The notes beneath the pieces were generated by a model, which worked only from the letters and a program-made list of their open reading frames with translations, was not told the DNA's origin and searched no databases. A DNA stretch of 35,647 nucleotides, taken from positions 1 through 35,647 of IMG/VR virus record IMGVR_UViG_3300011114_000021; one strand, written 5' to 3'. This DNA comes from a virus. Shown piece after piece: positions 3,046-20,046 of this stretch. Made by a program: the position numbers and the translations under genes. Positions within the stretch are counted from its first letter, which is position 1. The number at the start of each line of letters is the position of its first letter.

Positions 3046-5205
3046 TTATGCCATTCCGTATTGGTTGATGGGCGCAGCCGCTGACATCTGGCTCTGTGCC
3101 AGGGTAGTCTGCTGCTGCATTGCTTCTCGGTTGAGATTTTGCTGTGCTTCAATCTCAGCCGTAGAAATCTGTGCGTTGTACTTTAACTCAAGTTCGTATT
3201 TCTTTAAGTACAACTCTTGCGCCAAGGCATCACGCCGGTAATCGTCATCGCGGATCATCTGCTGGTGCTTGAGTTCCAGTTCTGCCGCCTTCTTCTGAAT
3301 ATCGGCCTCAATAGACTTGGCCTGCACCTGCGCCAGCACCTCCTCTGGAGTAGGTTTAGGTGCTGCTGGGGCTGGCGGCTGGTAGTCGGCAGGCACATCA
3401 TTGAAGTATTGCGAGGCGTCCTTAAACCCAGATAGCTGCACGATCTGGCGCAGGGTATGGGAATACTGAGACGGGGTCACCAGCGGGTTCTGTGGCCCCA
3501 ACTGAGTCAAAGCCTCCTGTTGCTTACCTAAGATCATCATCAGAGCCTGGATGCGCTCGTTGGTGTCGCCGTTACCCAAGCCGATATTGATGTGGACATC
3601 CATAGCGGTATTCCATGCACGCGGGTCCATCTGCACAAACTCGTTACGCAAACGAATCATGCGCGGCTTGTCCTGGTGCGTCACCAGCAAAAACAATATG
3701 CCCTTAAACAGTTTCTTCATGCCCTCGGCCATCAGGCGTGCCGTCAGCTCAATGCGACCCTGGCTTGCGCTGATGGTGGCCGCTACCGCTGCCTTGGTGC
3801 TCGACTGCAAGGCATCGGCATCCAATCCCATCGCGGCCTTGCTCATGCCGGTGCGATCCTCTTTGATCTGGTCGATGTAGTCCAGCATTGGGAATGCCGC
3901 CTGGCCAACAAATGGATTGCTAAACGGCTGCACCATTCCAGGCTGGCGCATACGGATAACGGCGCCGGTCTCGTTGTTGAGTACGTCGTCCATATTGACC
4001 ATGCCCTCAACCACCGCAGTGCGCGGGTGGATGCTTTGAGCCAGAGAGTCCAGCGTATTGCGCAAAATCTCCGACTTGATCTCCTGAATGTCGTGTGTAA
4101 TGTCAAAAATAGACATCGCCTCCAGGGGGCTGGTATGAGGCTCTGGGTCGCAGGGGAAGTCAACAAACGGAATATAGGACGCTGGCAGGTTGCGCACTAC
4201 CTTGTATCCAGAGCCAATGCAGCAAATCTTGCGCAGCTCTGCAATGCCATCGCCATCGTAGTCAATGCGCGAGTACGCCTCAATGTAGAGCACGCGCTGC
4301 TGCATCGGGTTAGCGCTGTCGTTCATGCCAAACGTAGTAGACAGGGGCTGGCGTGCCAGGTACTCCTCATTGCTGTCCAAATCTGTAGACGTGATGTTGT
4401 CGCGCACCTCGTCCTCGTCGTAGCCCATCGCCACCAGCTCCTCGACTGTGGCCATCTTGCGGTGGGCAATGATGCCAGCCTCATCGAATGACCTAGCACG
4501 CCGGTCAAGCAGCAATTCCTCTGGCGGCACTGCCATGATCTTGATGCGGCCATCCTTTATCACGCGCTTAATCTGCACGTCGTGCAGCATGGGCTGCTGC
4601 ATAGGTCCAGGTTGACCAGTCATTGGATCAATATTTTGAATTCCTGGTTGCATTGGGTCAGGGTAAGAGACGACAATCTTGACCTCGGCATCTTCTTGCG
4701 CAAGTATCTGCAATGTCTGGTCATCTAAGCCAGAATATTCCTCAATGCGGACAGACTCTGTCTCCTCCCACCAATACTTAGCAATTCCGCACTTACGCAC
4801 CAGGCTATCTTTGAAGATGGCGTAGGTGGTCATAAAACCATTGTTGTCATTGTTGAAAACAAAGTTTGCGTAGTCGGTGGCTTGTTTGTCAAAGCCAACA
4901 TCCTCTGGACCTTGTGGCAAATACTCCACTACGTTCTCGCTAGAGAAAAACACCCGCATCAGGCTGGGCATCATGGACGATACAGTGTCCCGCACCTCCA
5001 TCGCCACCACCTGTGACCGGCCATCTTCCTCATTGCCAAATGGGTCGCCCCGGTAATACTCCGTACCCTTGGCGCGAATAGGCGATAAATCGGAATCAAT
5101 ATAGCTGACGGCGTCAGTCAGGTCCTGGCCAATGATTGCCTCCAGCTCATCATCATCCATCGGCTCCATCGCCGACACATCGGTGGTTATCTCTAGGTCT
5201 TTCAT
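3046..5205 (-). CDS. Portal protein (podovirus/SU10-like)
   Basis: The product has 719 residues, a usual length for a P22- or SU10-type portal. The N-terminal half shows the expected layout: an acidic start, then MMPSLMRVFFSSENVVEY near residues 78-95, the YANFVF...NGFMTTYAIFKDSLVRKCGIAKYWW region, and a stem and wing domain. A long Gln-rich helical C-terminus follows (about 600-719), like a barrel or crown extension. The dodecameric portal forms the DNA entry vertex, docks the terminase and later carries the tail adaptors. It overlaps the upstream methyltransferase by ATGA and abuts the downstream small gene. Confidence 0.88.
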   Translation of the reverse strand: MKDLEITTDVSAMEPMDDDELEAIIGQDLTDAVSYIDSDLSPIRAKGTEYYRGDPFGNEEDGRSQVVAMEVRDTVSSMMPSLMRVFFSSENVVEYLPQGPEDVGFDKQATDYANFVFNNDNNGFMTTYAIFKDSLVRKCGIAKYWWEETESVRIEEYSGLDDQTLQILAQEDAEVKIVVSYPDPMQPGIQNIDPMTGQPGPMQQPMLHDVQIKRVIKDGRIKIMAVPPEELLLDRRARSFDEAGIIAHRKMATVEELVAMGYDEDEVRDNITSTDLDSNEEYLARQPLSTTFGMNDSANPMQQRVLYIEAYSRIDYDGDGIAELRKICCIGSGYKVVRNLPASYIPFVDFPCDPEPHTSPLEAMSIFDITHDIQEIKSEILRNTLDSLAQSIHPRTAVVEGMVNMDDVLNNETGAVIRMRQPGMVQPFSNPFVGQAAFPMLDYIDQIKEDRTGMSKAAMGLDADALQSSTKAAVAATISASQGRIELTARLMAEGMKKLFKGILFLLVTHQDKPRMIRLRNEFVQMDPRAWNTAMDVHINIGLGNGDTNERIQALMMILGKQQEALTQLGPQNPLVTPSQYSHTLRQIVQLSGFKDASQYFNDVPADYQPPAPAAPKPTPEEVLAQVQAKSIEADIQKKAAELELKHQQMIRDDDYRRDALAQELYLKKYELELKYNAQISTAEIEAQQNLNREAMQQQTTLAQSQMSAAAPINQYGMA

Positions 5206-9248: not shown

Positions 9249-9259
9249 GGTTATCCACA
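9175..9259 (+). promoter_or_regulatory. Two DnaA-box-like sites between terS and terL
   Basis: TTATCCACA, a perfect match to the E. coli DnaA box consensus, occurs at 9175-9183 and again at 9251-9259 in the same orientation, 76 bp apart. The second includes the terS stop codon (TTA on the plus strand). The match to the consensus is direct. Binding by host DnaA is inference. Confidence 0.5.
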
Positions 9260-9688
9260 GACTTGCGGCACGTTGTCAGCGTCCTGCACCACCTCGACAT
9301 GGCGCAGCGCATCGAGGCGCAGGCCACCAATGCTGATGTTCACCGCAGGACCGCGCTGCTGGGCGTAGACGCTAGGCTTCCAGCGCTCCGCGATCCACTG
9401 CCTGGTCTGGATGCGCACGCGAGCCAGGTTAGCCTCCTCGGGCGCCGCCTGGTCAGCGATATCCAGCGTGTCGCATACCATCACATCTGCTGCTCGCGCA
9501 CGCGCCCGAGCAATTTTATGCTCGTTCTCGGGCATCTCGCACCAGATTTCTAGCGCACGTCTCCCGATTCCTAGTGCCTCGCATATCCGCGCCGTTGACT
9601 TGCCTGCCTCAAACATGGCCACGATTTGCTCAATCGGAACCGAGTCCAGCACCGCCAAGTCCTCGCGCTTTTTCTTTTGCCCAGCCAT
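9251..9688 (-). CDS. terS: Terminase small subunit
   Basis: The product has 145 residues. Residues about 16-55 form a helix-turn-helix (VPIEQIVAMFEAGKSTARIC then EALGIGRRALEIWCEM), which would bind the packaging site. The middle ARARARAADVMVCDTLDIAD and ARVRIQTRQWIAERWKPSVY match the helical oligomerisation part of phage small terminases. The ATG at 9688 has GGAGG eight bases upstream and overlaps the stop of a 26-residue frame (TAATG). It recruits viral DNA to TerL, encoded next. Confidence 0.85.
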   Translation of the reverse strand: MAGQKKKREDLAVLDSVPIEQIVAMFEAGKSTARICEALGIGRRALEIWCEMPENEHKIARARARAADVMVCDTLDIADQAAPEEANLARVRIQTRQWIAERWKPSVYAQQRGPAVNISIGGLRLDALRHVEVVQDADNVPQVCG

Positions 9689-9768
9689 TAAAACGCCCTC
9701 CAGCGCAAAACAGCGCCATGAAGCACCTTACCCATGCCCAGCCCCACATAATCGCTTCTACGCATCAT
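9688..9768 (-). CDS. Candidate 26-residue microprotein before terS
   Basis: ATG at 9768 overlaps the upstream stop (ATGATG context) and the frame ends in TAATG shared with the terS start, so it spans the gap exactly. The peptide starts MMRRSDYVGLGMGK and is basic with an amphipathic or hydrophobic middle. It contains the terS ribosome binding site, so it may act mainly in coupled translation. It is too short to assign. Confidence 0.45.
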   Translation of the reverse strand: MMRRSDYVGLGMGKVLHGAVLRWRAF

Positions 9769-10412
9769 TTAGCCCCTTTAAACGCCTTTGTGTCGAACAA
9801 TTTCGGCAGCGTGCTCGGTTTGCTCATGTCCAGGTCGTTGACCATGTCATCGAACCCGCTAGGCCCACCAACCGCTACCAGCTTACTCTCTGGCCATAGC
9901 CGCTTGATCTCGCCTAGTTGACCGCCTGCCTGCTTCTTGACGATTATCGCAATTTCCGCTGCCGTCCAGACATCCCTGTCTGTTGACCCTTGACACTGCT
10001 GGCAGTAGATTCGTTTTGAAATATCGTCTGGCACGATCACGAAAACCGTTCCGTCCTCGCGCTGGTGCTCGATCTGTCCCAGGTCCGGAAGTTCGCTGAC
10101 GCCGTTGGCCGCAGCCCATGCCTCCATCGCGTCGTAGGCTTTGCACATACCCCTGACCGCCTTGTCCAGCTTTTGGTCATCGCGCTGTTCTTGAGCCTGC
10201 CAAACGCGCTCCAGTTGCAGCCACACCTTTTCCCGCAACTCGCTATCCACCAGCCAGACCAGCCTATCAATACCCCACATTGCATCATGGGTATTCTTTC
10301 GGTTTACCAGCTCAACCATGACCGCGTTTTTAAACACCTCAAAACGATCTGCTGGAAAGCTCGGCATGGTCGGCTGAGTAATCGCCAAAGATTTAAGTTT
10401 TTTAGTAACCAC
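9765..10412 (-). CDS. Hypothetical protein upstream of terminase
   Basis: The product has 215 residues. It starts with GTG at 10412, preceded by GGAG six bases upstream. The N-terminal half is helical with many Trp (MWGIDRLVWLV, EKVWLQLERVWQAQEQR). The centre has a YCQQCQGSTDRDVW segment with a CxxC pair that could bind zinc. The C-terminus is basic. I do not recognise a family. It is the first gene after the large iteron-bearing gap and leads into terS, so it may be a packaging or late-control factor. This is inference from position only. Confidence 0.75.
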   Translation of the reverse strand: MVTKKLKSLAITQPTMPSFPADRFEVFKNAVMVELVNRKNTHDAMWGIDRLVWLVDSELREKVWLQLERVWQAQEQRDDQKLDKAVRGMCKAYDAMEAWAAANGVSELPDLGQIEHQREDGTVFVIVPDDISKRIYCQQCQGSTDRDVWTAAEIAIIVKKQAGGQLGEIKRLWPESKLVAVGGPSGFDDMVNDLDMSKPSTLPKLFDTKAFKGAK

Positions 10413-10475
10413 TTATCGCTCCATCAAAAAAACTAGAAACTGCCCACCTGGACAAAAGTTTGGGCATTGACTGAA

Positions 10476-10522
10476 ACGACGGAATGGGACGCGTACTAAG
10501 ACTTACGCGTCCATTCCGTCGT
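10476..10522. repeat. Long inverted repeat (cruciform or hairpin)
   Basis: Left arm 10476-10495 pairs with right arm 10504-10522 almost perfectly, with a single extra G in the left arm, around an 8-base loop. Each arm includes one copy of the 9-mer ACGGAATGG/CCATTCCGT. No T-run follows either side, so it does not look like a simple terminator. Confidence 0.85.
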
Positions 10523-10617
10523 TATTCCAGCCAATTTATGCCGAACGGAATGGGAAATTGGTGCTCTACCATTCCGTTTCCATTCCGTCTCCATTCCGTC
10601 CATTCCGTCCATTCCGT
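10479..10617. repeat. Iteron-like array, candidate replication origin or control site
   Basis: CCATTCCGT occurs on the plus strand at 10511, 10569, 10580, 10591, 10600 and 10609, and its reverse complement at 10479 and 10545, eight copies in 139 bp. The last five are spaced 11, 11, 9 and 9 bp. The array lies in the largest leftward-unit gap (10413-10635), directly behind the primase-helicase gene. Repeats of this kind bind initiator proteins in phage and plasmid origins. I see no gene here and no convincing sigma-70 promoter. A weak TGCCCA/TGGGCA hairpin lies at 10441-10466. Confidence 0.8.
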
Positions 10618-10635
10618 AAATTCACACAAAAAAGC

Positions 10636-12633
10636 CTAAAAGTCGCTACCATTTTGGTCACTATCATCCCAAATAACCCAAACCCAGGGTATATAAATAC
10701 CGATTCTTTTTGCCGCTAAAAGTGTTTTTTTGCTGTCGTTAAACTGCCTTTTTGTCAAAGATTTGGCTATGCAAGCCGCTTCCCACTGTCCCTCGTGAAT
10801 CACTTTATTGCGCTTTCCGTCAACTATTTGCATACTCCCATGCTCTTTAATTGCCTCGTGAAGTGCGTCCATTGCAATCAATTGGTTAGGCCCAGCAGCT
10901 GTCCTTGGCGGTGGAATCTTTGGTTTTTTGTACTGCTCGTCGATCATTTCCTGCTTCTCCTTGACCGCCAGTGAGACGTTTTCGTCCAGTCCGAGTCCGC
11001 TTCCCTGACCATGATTTATGTCTATCTGCACCATATCAAATCCGAATTTAAGGTTGTCCTGCCCATCCTTTTGCTTGCTGATGGTGATGATTCCTTGTCC
11101 TGCCACGCCATCCTTTTTGACTATCTGCTCAAGTTTTAAGAGTTCCAACTGCGTGTCCACGGCACCTAATAATGAGCTGTGACCGCGCAATCCTTTGGTC
11201 GCGTCCTTGCCTGAGTGGTGCAAGACCATCAAGGCGCAGTCCAATTTGCGCTGCAATCTGCCTGCGTTATGGATAAATGCGCCCATATCCTGGCTATCGT
11301 TCTCATTGCCGCCGCCAAAGGCTCTGGCCAGGGTATCTATCTGCACCAGGCGCAGCTCGATGCCTGTGCGCTCGATCAGGTCGTCTATTGACTCCATCAG
11401 CAGGTTGAAGTCGTCGGCGCTCGATCTCAGGTTGAGCTGGTAGCGGATGACGTAGATTTCTGCCCCATCCTGCGTCTGGTGGTTGATCTTGCAGGCTTTT
11501 ATTCGCGCCCCGATACCGCCGTGACCTTCACCGGCAATGTACAAGACGGCGCCAGGGTTTGTTACCTGGTTACCCATCCACGTCCTTCCGGTGGCCACAG
11601 CCTCGGCTATGTCCAGAGCAATGAAAGACTTGTAGCTTCCTGGCGGCCCGTACAGGGCTGCAAATCCCTTCTCCGGCAGCACGTTCTCGATGATCCACCT
11701 TACCGGCTCGTCCTTGATGGTGTCCCACGCCTCGATGTTGAGCAGTTGCGGCGTCGGGTTGTAGGCTTCCTGCTCAATTTCTGTTGTTTCTTTTGATTGT
11801 TCGCTGTCTGTGACTGCGAGTTCTTTCGTGATGATCGGCGCCTGCTTTGCCAGTTCCGCGAGTTCCTTGCGCGTACCCTTCATGTCATGCACCCACTCGT
11901 AGGCGTCGTCACCCTCCACCATCAAGTCCAGGTCCAGGTATCTAATTGACTTGGCCACAGGTAGCAGGTTCTGAATTGCACGCCTGGCGTACTGGCGTCC
12001 AGGCTCGTCGTGGTCAGGGATAACGACTATGTTGGCGCCTGCAAAGTATTGCGTAATCTCCGCTGGCCAACTGCCTGCTCCAGTGTGCGACGTGGTGGCA
12101 ATGGCGCCGATGCTGACCAGCGCGTCCGCTGCCTTCTCACCCTCCACCAGGTAGATTGCCCTGCCTGCTGTCTTAGCGTCCAGCAGTTCTGGTAACTGGT
12201 ACGGGACGATCCTTGTGTCCTTGAGTCCAGCAATGCGCTTGCCTTGCGCATCCACGCGGTGGATAGAGTACGTCTTACCCTTAGCGTCCGATGTCTTGTA
12301 CCGGCGCTTGGTGAACAGGATGTCGCCGTCCTCCGACCTGTACAGCCACTCCTTCTCCAGTATCGGCGCCTGCTGCTGGGTGAAACTGAATTCCTCACGT
12401 TTGGCTATGGTGGGCAGCAAGTCCCTGGCCCTGACAGCGTCAAACACGTCCCGCTGGTCGCAACCGCCGTGGCAGTGGAATAACACCTTGCCTTCAGACT
12501 CCGTGATAGATAGGCTAGGGTTTTTATCTCCGTTCCCTCTGCCGTGGCCAGGTACTGGGCAGCTGGCAACCCACTGCCCGTTGACCTGCTTGGCGTTACC
12601 CAGCGCCTTGGCTATTGTTTCTGTGTCTGGCAT
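10636..12633 (-). CDS. Bifunctional primase-helicase (CHC2 zinc finger, TOPRIM, RecA-like ATPase)
   Basis: The product has 665 residues. A zinc-binding region comes first (C25, H30, then HCHGGC at 53-58). A TOPRIM domain follows (YLVEGEKAAD, E164; then VVIPDHDE, D207 and D209). The RecA/RepA-like ATPase comes last (Walker A GPPGSYKS at 329-336, Walker B around D433, and LHHSGKDATKGLRGHS near 471-486). It probably primes and unwinds at the fork. No phage DNA polymerase is visible, so it would work with the host enzyme. Its start overlaps the methyltransferase stop by 22 bp. An iteron array follows it. Confidence 0.88.
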   Translation of the reverse strand: MPDTETIAKALGNAKQVNGQWVASCPVPGHGRGNGDKNPSLSITESEGKVLFHCHGGCDQRDVFDAVRARDLLPTIAKREEFSFTQQQAPILEKEWLYRSEDGDILFTKRRYKTSDAKGKTYSIHRVDAQGKRIAGLKDTRIVPYQLPELLDAKTAGRAIYLVEGEKAADALVSIGAIATTSHTGAGSWPAEITQYFAGANIVVIPDHDEPGRQYARRAIQNLLPVAKSIRYLDLDLMVEGDDAYEWVHDMKGTRKELAELAKQAPIITKELAVTDSEQSKETTEIEQEAYNPTPQLLNIEAWDTIKDEPVRWIIENVLPEKGFAALYGPPGSYKSFIALDIAEAVATGRTWMGNQVTNPGAVLYIAGEGHGGIGARIKACKINHQTQDGAEIYVIRYQLNLRSSADDFNLLMESIDDLIERTGIELRLVQIDTLARAFGGGNENDSQDMGAFIHNAGRLQRKLDCALMVLHHSGKDATKGLRGHSSLLGAVDTQLELLKLEQIVKKDGVAGQGIITISKQKDGQDNLKFGFDMVQIDINHGQGSGLGLDENVSLAVKEKQEMIDEQYKKPKIPPPRTAAGPNQLIAMDALHEAIKEHGSMQIVDGKRNKVIHEGQWEAACIAKSLTKRQFNDSKKTLLAAKRIGIYIPWVWVIWDDSDQNGSDF

Positions 12634-15986: not shown

Positions 15987-16814
15987 TCAGTCTCCGCAGA
16001 AGCAAGCAATTGCTTCCTCGTTAGGGTCAAACATATCGGATTGTTCTGCGGCATATTTAATCATTGACGCATAAGAAGGACGGTCGGAACGGAACACCGC
16101 ACCGCTTGGCTTGGACGCTAACGCTAACGCTAACGCTTCCATCCTCGCCCACCATACAGCACGTTCTGGCTTCTCCGCTATTAGGGATAACACCTGTGCG
16201 CCGCCTTTAAGAAAACATAGATCGCAGTTGCCGTGCATGGTCACGCCGTTGTTGTTTGGCAATCCAAGATCAAATGACTGTGCTCTCCAAAATGCGCCAA
16301 CATCATCTTTCGTAATTCCAGCAATCACCAATGGAATGCGAGATTTATCTGCAATTTTTGCGGCCCTGCGCTGCTCATCAGCTCTCATTCCAACCCAATC
16401 CATCGACTCATTGTGTTTCCATCCAAGCGACTTCAAATATTTATGAATGGTTCTAATCTTTAATTCCACAGTACAAAACCGAGTCACTGGATTAGGTAAA
16501 TAATTCCGCTTTTTTATCAACGCCTCAAACGGCTCACCCTGGCGGCTGGCAGTATCAAACGTCACGCGCTCAAAGGCTGGATCAGCATCACGATATTCAA
16601 GCCAGTGAATTTCCACATTCCACTGCTCAGAGCAATCTTGTACAAATTTCAAGGTTGCCTCATCTTCTTTGCCAGTGTTGGCAAAGCAAACAATTGCTTC
16701 TTCTGGCAAGCCGCCATTGCTTTGCAGCACACGCCAAAGCATATACGCTGACGTTCTGCCACCACTAAACGATATGCAGGTCGGCTCGGTAATCTTGAAA
16801 GGATCAAAGATCAC
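15987..16814 (-). CDS. PAPS-reductase-family (PP-loop ATPase) phage protein
   Basis: The GTG at 16814 overlaps the RuvC-like stop (GTGA) and has AGGGGA upstream, giving 275 residues. The PP-loop is SFSGGRTSAYMLW, followed by FANTGKEDEATLKFVQDC and NPVTRFCTVELKIR. A cysteine cluster CDLCFLKGG and the C-terminal CFCGD complete a known prophage-associated type within the adenine nucleotide alpha-hydrolase group. It may activate a substrate by adenylation and could bind iron-sulfur or zinc. Simple sulfate assimilation is unproven. It sits inside a recombination cluster. Confidence 0.82.
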   Translation of the reverse strand: MIFDPFKITEPTCISFSGGRTSAYMLWRVLQSNGGLPEEAIVCFANTGKEDEATLKFVQDCSEQWNVEIHWLEYRDADPAFERVTFDTASRQGEPFEALIKKRNYLPNPVTRFCTVELKIRTIHKYLKSLGWKHNESMDWVGMRADEQRRAAKIADKSRIPLVIAGITKDDVGAFWRAQSFDLGLPNNNGVTMHGNCDLCFLKGGAQVLSLIAEKPERAVWWARMEALALALASKPSGAVFRSDRPSYASMIKYAAEQSDMFDPNEEAIACFCGD

Positions 16815-17287
16815 TTGTTCCCCTTCAAAAACCAAGCGCCAATAAGAACGGCATCAGCGCGGCCGTCATCCTTGACGCGAGCAAACTGCTTCTGGTGGCT
16901 TGGATAGAGTTCGCAGGCTCGTGCGCGTGATGCGTCCTTGCCAGCACCTCTGCCTATTCCCTTTGTCCAGACTGATGGCATGACGTAGGTGGCGGGTATC
17001 TCAAAGGCCGCCAGGATGCCCTCAATCAAGCCAAAACTGCGCCCAAATGAGAACATGGACGTTACCCCTTGCCCTGGCATTGCGGTGACTTTTTCCACTA
17101 TGACGTGATGGGGCTTATGCGCACTAAAGATTCCTGCTAATCCAGACGCTGACACTTGGCGTTTGGCTTTCCCGTTGCGTGTTAGCTCATGCGTTGGCAT
17201 ATCAAATATACCGATCAGCTCGTGATCTGTATACCTAAACACAGCAATCGCACCACTCAGGCCTGGGTCAATGGACATAACAATCAT
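16811..17287 (-). CDS. RuvC-like Holliday junction resolvase
   Basis: Starting at the ATG that overlaps the regulator stop (ATGA), the product is 158 residues. The RNase H fold shows MSIDPGLSGAIAVF (D7), VIVEKVTAMPGQG (E65), and KDDGRADAVLIGAW with acidic residues D140, D141 and D145. These fit the metal-binding carboxylates of RuvC. Phage versions resolve branched DNA before packaging and may help replication. Neighbouring genes are a regulator upstream and the PAPS-reductase-like gene downstream. Confidence 0.87.
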   Translation of the reverse strand: MIVMSIDPGLSGAIAVFRYTDHELIGIFDMPTHELTRNGKAKRQVSASGLAGIFSAHKPHHVIVEKVTAMPGQGVTSMFSFGRSFGLIEGILAAFEIPATYVMPSVWTKGIGRGAGKDASRARACELYPSHQKQFARVKDDGRADAVLIGAWFLKGNK

Positions 17288-19472: not shown

Positions 19473-19678
19473 CTATCGGACGTTTTGCAAATGGGAATGA
19501 CTCTAAGCGCAGAGTCCTTGGCCTGGCTGGTGAGTGGTCACCACGCGAGAAACTGCCAGGCGAGGCACAGCCTCCCGCTATCTCAATCTGGCGCCAGCCA
19601 GTGTATCAGCCGCCTAAGATGGATACGCCTAGACCTGGCGCCAGTGACCATCTCAAAGTCAGGAGCAGAGGTATATGA
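19469..19678 (+). CDS. 69-residue hypothetical, Pro-rich
   Basis: ATG at 19469 overlaps the upstream stop and has GGAG upstream. The product starts MTIGRFANGNDSKRRVLG and is rich in Pro, Arg and Gly (WRQPVYQPPKMDTPRPGASD), probably disordered. It has no metal site or membrane segment. The stop overlaps the ATG of the winged-helix gene (ATGA). A longer upstream start is not preferred because it would overlap the 58-residue gene heavily. Confidence 0.6.
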   Translation: MTIGRFANGNDSKRRVLGLAGEWSPREKLPGEAQPPAISIWRQPVYQPPKMDTPRPGASDHLKVRSRGI

Positions 19679-20046
19679 AGTCCATCAGAGAGCTGCGCAT
19701 ACTGGACATCTTGCAGCGCAAAGAGATGTCCACCTCCGAGCTGTGCGTCCTGGTTCACTGCACCCAGCGCTCTGTTCAGGATATTCTTACCAGGATGAAG
19801 CGCAAGGGGCTGGTGTATCGGTCAGGATGGAGACGCCAGCCCGATGGTATTGCGGCACTCTTTAAGGCAGGTATAGGGGTCGATGCCCCAAAGCCTCCAC
19901 GGACAACTGACAAGGAGCGACAGCAACGAAAACGCGCCAGGGAGACTCAGGAGGATAAAGAGTTTCGCCTGGCGCGTGAGAAGGCCAAGAGCATTAAACC
20001 AAGGCGCGATCCAATGATTAGCGCGTTTTATGGAGAGTACAAGTGA
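19675..20046 (+). CDS. Winged-helix DNA-binding protein
   Basis: The product has 123 residues. Residues 1-50 form a winged helix-turn-helix (MKSIRELRILDILQRKEMST then SELCVLVHCTQRSVQDILTR and MKRKGLVYRSGW), like MarR or ROK-type regulators that sense short operators. A basic tail (KERQQRKRARETQEDKEF and AREKAKSIKPRR) may add DNA affinity. The ATG overlaps the upstream stop and the GTG of the next gene overlaps its own stop. It probably regulates this operon or the late genes, and no operator is identified. Confidence 0.78.
   Translation: MKSIRELRILDILQRKEMSTSELCVLVHCTQRSVQDILTRMKRKGLVYRSGWRRQPDGIAALFKAGIGVDAPKPPRTTDKERQQRKRARETQEDKEFRLAREKAKSIKPRRDPMISAFYGEYK

Follow-up and report, generated by a model that had tools for sequence, protein, structure and literature searches.

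A RepA-type phage primase-helicase and the iteron-hairpin array behind its gene as a candidate single-protein initiator replicon

Described self-recognising initiators and the present locus

The helicases of the SaPI Rep and SCCmec Cch2 initiators are of the DUF927 or D5/Primase_Cterm type (SF3/AAA+), and that of P4 alpha belongs to SF3. In SaPI Rep and Cch2, the C-terminal domain of the initiator helicase recognises short iterons located directly downstream of its own gene (PMC7581432). P4 alpha combines a TOPRIM primase, a helicase and a winged-helix domain in one protein, which binds origin repeats (as described in PMC4234260). In RSF1010 (IncQ), RepC, RepA and RepB' are three separate proteins and oriV carries iterons together with ssi hairpins; pRN1 ORF904 and phage BIP-1 have a primase-helicase with a C-terminal winged helix and an origin stem-loop just downstream of the gene (PMC4234260). 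Kazlauskas and colleagues proposed that the C-terminal winged helices of primase fusions, some of which carry RepA-type helicases, might recognise origins (PMC5862659).

The locus analysed here belongs to a freshwater phage and lies in a DNA stretch of 35,647 nucleotides (hereafter the window). Like SaPI Rep and Cch2, it has several copies of a short word, eight in this case, directly downstream of a helicase gene, but the helicase is of the RepA/RecA type and fused to a TOPRIM-type primase, and two of the iterons lie in the arms of a long hairpin. Compared by description with P4 alpha, it likewise has a primase, a helicase and a predicted winged helix in one protein, with the difference that the helicase is RepA-type (SF4). 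With RSF1010 it shares a RepA-type helicase and iterons accompanied by hairpins, but the three roles seem to be united here in a single polypeptide. The predicted C-terminal winged helix on a primase-helicase and the stem-loop just downstream recall pRN1 ORF904 and BIP-1, which differ in having an archaeo-eukaryotic primase and an SF3 helicase, with no iterons found there. The PrimQH family (AEP primase plus RepA/DnaB helicase) similarly unites a primase, a RepA-type helicase and a C-terminal winged helix, but its primase is of another type and the available text of the source presents it without a demonstrated origin or covariation (PMC5862659).

A literature search of a partial open library returned no paper describing this arrangement for a RepA-type phage helicase. 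By this comparison, the logic of a self-recognising initiator is already known and does not make a new category, because it is that of SaPI Rep/Cch2, P4 alpha and pRN1, and the helicase belongs with RSF1010 RepA. What is new is the use of a RepA-type helicase for the proposed self-recognition, together with a hairpin whose arms carry iterons and a broad covariation of word and protein at residue level.

The iteron array, its hairpin and their conservation

The array sits in a leftward gene unit, between the primase-helicase gene and the gene for a 215-residue protein (Table 1), where the first-pass annotation had placed it. The eight copies counted there were recovered as exact CCATTCCGT/ACGGAATGG words at 10479-10617, a span of 139 bp; the chance expectation for the word in the 223-bp gap is 0.0018. 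Any other 223-bp segment of the 35.6 kb holds at most four copies of any 9-mer, and a single stray copy of the word occurs outside the array, at 3051. The last five iterons are spaced by 11, 11, 9, and 9 bp, about one helical turn. No distinct AT-rich unwinding element was found in the window's clade, and GC skew in the window tracks gene direction and gives no origin signal.

Table 1. Coordinates of the features of the candidate origin and the adjoining genes in the window.
Feature	Coordinates	Strand	Basis
Intergenic region with proposed replication origin	10413-10635 (223 bp)		Gap from helicase stop to start of the 215-residue gene
Imperfect 80-nt palindrome (hairpin) whose arms hold iterons 1 and 2; proposed opening/priming element	10463-10542		Folding
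Iteron 1, in one hairpin arm	10479-10487	-	Exact match
Iteron 2, in the other hairpin arm	10511-10519	+	Exact match
Iteron 3, in opposite orientation to iterons 4-8	10545-10553	-	Exact match
Tandem block, iterons 4-8 (at 10569, 10580, 10591, 10600, 10609)	10569-10617	+	Exact matches
Primase-helicase, 665 residues; proposed initiator	10636-12633	-	Profile matches
Predicted winged-helix domain at the C-terminus (residues 582-653), candidate reader of the iterons	10675-10890	-	AlphaFold2, Foldseek, word covariation
Predicted recognition helix, residues 628-640	10714-10752	-	Predicted secondary structure
215-residue gene behind the proposed origin; conserved neighbour, not word reader	9765-10412	-	No family match

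The upstream neighbours encode a C5 methyltransferase, a RuvC-like resolvase, and a RecB-like exonuclease. Downstream of the 215-residue gene, whose product matched no family in profile searches, come the terminase genes, with the small subunit (9251-9688) 1 kb on from the array. Phage families are matched by the portal and head proteins; for the large terminase, the nearest relatives are Manatee Spring contigs and Sinorhizobium phage phiM5. Among the proteins searched, which cover part of the window's open reading frames, none had a DNA polymerase family as its best reading. A separate RepC-like initiator gene was likewise absent among the proteins searched, the primase being fused to the helicase.

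The inverted repeat noted earlier is present, with arms at 10475-10495 and 10504-10523 that are perfect except for one bulged G. The arm length of about 20 bp given for it proved too short; bulged pairing extends the structure to 80 nt. Folded as single-stranded DNA, the segment 10440-10620 is 6.4 standard deviations more stable than its shuffles (z -6.4). In the close clade, the hairpin of about 80 nt folds in all 22 distinct sequences examined and keeps a TCTT loop, and 11 of the 22 consensus pairs have changed on both sides. Short AT-rich loop cores (CTTGCTTAATGCAAG, CCCTTTAGGG, CCTATATAGG, TCTTA) recur in the clade of locus L083 and in phages CRP-811, 16-3, RHph_N65 and 1N2-2, and may act as a signal for priming or extrusion.

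Searching viral contigs with the helicase as query yielded 78 loci, a set that three further scans enlarged. An array was called significant when the best 8-mer behind the helicase stop had at least four copies and exceeded all 60 dinucleotide shuffles. By this measure, 132 distinct loci carry an array, and an array is present at this position in essentially all viral relatives; array and palindrome occur together behind the helicase stop in close and intermediate viral relatives. Same-strand neighbouring words in the relatives show spacing peaks at 9 and 11-12 bp, again about one DNA turn, and in the records scanned each genome has a single cluster of the word core. Bacterial genomes (GTDB) yielded distant homologues, mostly from planctomycete MAGs, and most of these have no array behind the gene, so the method is not positive everywhere. 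The scan of genome contigs found distant bacterial homologues only and no prophage with a close system. Among distant bacterial loci (from Streptomyces, Acidiphilium, and others), L102, L104, L135, L158 and L170 have repeated words (GATACACC seven times, AATGTCCC four times, CGTCACAC four times, ATGGACAA five times) and are possibly prophages or islands with the same system.

Isolated phages with a RepA-type helicase have this layout too, and their words are unrelated. Rhizobium phages 16-3 and RHph_X2_25 carry CGTGACA in 14 and 16 copies, RHph_N65 carries GCGGAGA in 12, Idiomarinaceae phage 1N2-2 carries CGGTACA in eight, and Roseobacter phages CRP-811 and CRP-821 carry CTACAAA in 11 and GTATAAA in ten; RHph_Y3_1 has nine copies of GTTCCCA. 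In several of them there is also a hairpin with words in its arms and an AT-rich loop, for example CCCTTTAGGG or CCTATATAGG. No array follows the gene in Upyo, Thonko, Mae-JY30 and MW202711, which encode RepA-like helicases; Vibrio phage 1.076.O and MW202879 were among the phages with RepA-type helicases examined and were counted neither way. A DNA-level search of the named phages with the array region gave no match.

The arrangement is conserved but the word is not, each phage having its own. Words in the window's clade include ACGGAATGG, ACGAAATGG, GGACAAATGG, GGTACAAATGG, GGGCAAATGG, GCCAAATGG and GAAAAATGG, and those in other relatives GTAAACAAATGG, TCAACGAATGG, CACCACAAA, GTGAATATGG, TAGCCGACTT, TAGGCAAC, CGTATAGT and more. 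The first-pass annotation had proposed a search for the 9-mer in related phages, with absence of the array from close relatives counting against an origin; the array is indeed kept at the same place, but the 9-mer itself gives way to other words. Absence of the 9-mer would mislead as a refutation of the origin reading, because the array is conserved while the word is replaced. The change is concerted within one phage and involves all copies, direct and inverted, and both palindrome arms, which points to one reader acting in trans. At L057 (also L069 and L084), the array is mixed, part CCTACAAATGG and part GTAAACAAATGG, in a lineage with one recognition-helix residue changed from K to R; the array is possibly that of an origin in transition from one word to another.

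Covariation of the iteron word with the helicase C-terminus

The N-terminal half of the primase-helicase matches primase-type profiles, and the helicase part matches Pfam AAA_25 (RepA-type helicase; E 4e-41). The sole PDB sequence relative of the helicase part is the hexameric helicase RSF1010 RepA (1g8y; profile match over residues 309-489, E 4e-6), a weak match indicating homology only. One protein thus contains primase profiles, AAA_25 and a predicted winged helix in a P4-alpha-type layout, with a helicase of the AAA_25/RepA type and not of the SF3/AAA+ type (DUF927 or D5). Searches of PDB and Pfam with the sequence of the C-terminal domain gave nothing significant, and folds were therefore compared. 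AlphaFold2, run on a 56-sequence alignment, predicted a winged helix at the C-terminus with a core pLDDT of about 78-89. The predicted elements are a helix (residues 582-598), a β-hairpin, a second helix (614-623), a third helix in the recognition position (Table 1), and a wing (644-653). Foldseek hits to this domain were mostly winged helices (MCM, KAT6A, CRP-type, plasmid initiator), all of them weak and none with E < 0.001.

For 25-residue windows of the helicase and of the downstream protein, protein distance was compared with word distance, helicase-core distance being held constant. For the last 75 helicase residues, the partial r was 0.78 in the window's own clade (25 loci), 0.61 in the L083 clade (44 loci) and 0.89 in the L070 clade (25 loci). 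The permutation p was 0.001 in each of the three clades; related loci were entered as separate points, so these p-values are not those of independent events. The word was tracked consistently only by the last ∼100 helicase residues and not by the helicase core. The L070 clade has one exception, in that the word there also follows the N-terminal third of the downstream protein, most simply through a shared recombination block. The first N-terminal helicase window is also high in that clade, in a poorly aligned stretch.

Pairwise comparison gave the same picture. Loci whose C-termini are at least 85% identical have the same word in 98-100% of pairs, against 0-2% of pairs below 60% identity, and core identity is similar in both groups. 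L263 and L281 share 94% of the core and 20% of the C-terminus and have unrelated words; L263 and L276 share 78% of the core and 96% of the C-terminus and have the same word. The helicase cores of L281-L285 and L288 are 91-94% identical to those of L262, L263 and L272, with C-terminal domains 20% identical and entirely different words; judged from the sequences, this is a clean case of a domain swap.

The columns that best follow the word include 626, 630, 633, 635 and 640 together with 646-650, and thus fall on the predicted recognition helix and wing. In near-identical backgrounds, L021 and L030 differ by two residues beside the recognition helix, QTDKTGIKRRF going with GGACAAATGG and QMDKAGIKRRF with GCCAAATGG. 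[P/T/S]KQISN occurs with CCTACAAATGG and SRQISN mainly with GTAAACAAATGG. The covariation of the word with the C-terminal tail suggests self-recognition of the start site by the enzyme, although part of the correlation could reflect shared recombination blocks, because the C-terminal codons adjoin the array.

Three candidate binders had been named at first pass: the 215-residue protein, a separate winged-helix protein and the primase. The evidence favours the last, as the primase-helicase, through a winged helix of its own: covariation with the word and a predicted winged helix coincide in its C-terminal domain, the putative iteron recogniser. The 215-residue protein was rejected as word reader, with a partial r of -0.02 in both the own and the L083 clades and no relatives in the named phages. 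The separate winged-helix protein (19675-20046) was also set aside; a recognisable match occurs in only eight loci of the combined clades and five of the own clade, the flanks being limited throughout. No word covariation was seen for the Cro-like protein HTH69. In the own and L083 clades, neither terminase subunit followed the word, nor did the SSB-like, RuvC-like and Cro-like proteins; together with the exonuclease, these proteins gave weak values at most.

A candidate origin and competing explanations

It is likely that 10413-10635 is a replication origin and that the upstream primase-helicase is its initiator, forming a single-protein initiator replicon. The repeat cluster with its long hairpin is very probably the replication start site. 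The proposal of an initiator-binding origin, made earlier from the array itself, has good indirect support in the position behind a replicative helicase, kept in essentially all viral relatives, the initiator-like covariation, the hairpin, and the single cluster per genome. Array, hairpin, conservation and covariation are direct sequence results and the winged-helix fold is a prediction; from these features we infer binding, opening, priming and a replication start at the array. The C-terminal winged helix would attach to the 9-bp words, as double-stranded DNA, just behind the gene that encodes it, and the tandem words, one helical turn apart, would concentrate and assemble one or more hexamers of the RepA-type helicase. 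The palindrome, with two words in its arms, would be extruded or melted to give the ring an entry to single-stranded DNA. The helicase would then unwind, the fused primase would make primers, and a host polymerase would take over.

The array might instead be bound by the helicase's winged helix but serve mainly as an operator for the downstream genes (the 215-residue gene and the terminases) and not as an origin, which we regard as unlikely. It does lie directly upstream of those genes, and initiators often act as repressors too. However, no sigma-70-like promoter was found in the array region, and the array is behind the initiator gene, not in front of it. The downstream genes also vary among phages of the same layout (16-3, CRP-811, RHph_N65), and 8-16 iterons plus a hairpin exceed the needs of an operator. 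Somewhat less likely still is an account of the covariation by linkage only, in which the C-terminal end and the array would be exchanged together in a single recombination block, with no functional coupling, and slippage or conversion would keep the copies alike. The two are adjacent, and the block in the L070 clade also takes in the start of the downstream gene. Yet the downstream protein on the array's other side does not follow the word in the own and L083 clades, and the signal peaks at the columns of the recognition helix and wing. Moreover, inverted copies with different spacers change together with both palindrome arms, and near-identical C-termini with different words differ at or beside helix residues.

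Since pac sites are often found in or next to small terminase genes and the terminase genes follow the array, a pac site read by the small terminase subunit was considered; it is very improbable, as the subunit's partial r against the word is 0.10, -0.14 and -0.06 in the three clades and the array stays behind the helicase in phages with other gene orders. We give hardly any credence to a structured RNA element of the operon transcript in which the hairpin acts as RNA. A strong conserved hairpin with compensatory changes would fit such an element, but the words outside the hairpin are direct repeats, inexplicable by RNA pairing. G-U pairs are not in excess among the mismatches (GT+TG 45 vs AC+CA 50 in 2044 pairs), no Rfam family was matched at gathering level, and the hairpin lacks a terminator tail.

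If the single-protein reading is true, an SF4/RepA-type helicase would join the self-loading initiators, a group known best from SF3/AAA+ proteins. Where a phage encodes a RepA-type primase-helicase but shows no obvious origin or initiator gene, the reading would name both, placing the origin right behind the helicase gene, and would provide a simple origin-finding rule for uncultured phages. The dozens of natural protein-word pairs would be a resource for winged-helix recognition. With more doubt than conviction, we also put forward that the C-terminal winged helix and the iteron/hairpin array may be an exchangeable origin-specificity cassette, swapped or re-tuned repeatedly among related phages while the remainder of the helicase stays almost the same. 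Neither co-infecting relatives nor origin-mimicking parasites and decoys could then share or hijack one another's initiator, and the natural helix/word pairs would form a readable recognition code for SF4-type self-loading initiators. Swapping of origin specificity between co-infecting relatives is a testable idea.

Two further observations concern other parts of the window. Two CTGGCGCCAG palindromes, 47 bp apart, lie at 19588-19645, just upstream of the small winged-helix (MarR-like) gene at 19675-20046, and are a possible operator of the MarR-like protein. A PAPS-reductase-like gene (15987-16835) lies in the replication/recombination unit, and phages CRP-821 and C72C1 have genes annotated as similar close to their replication genes.
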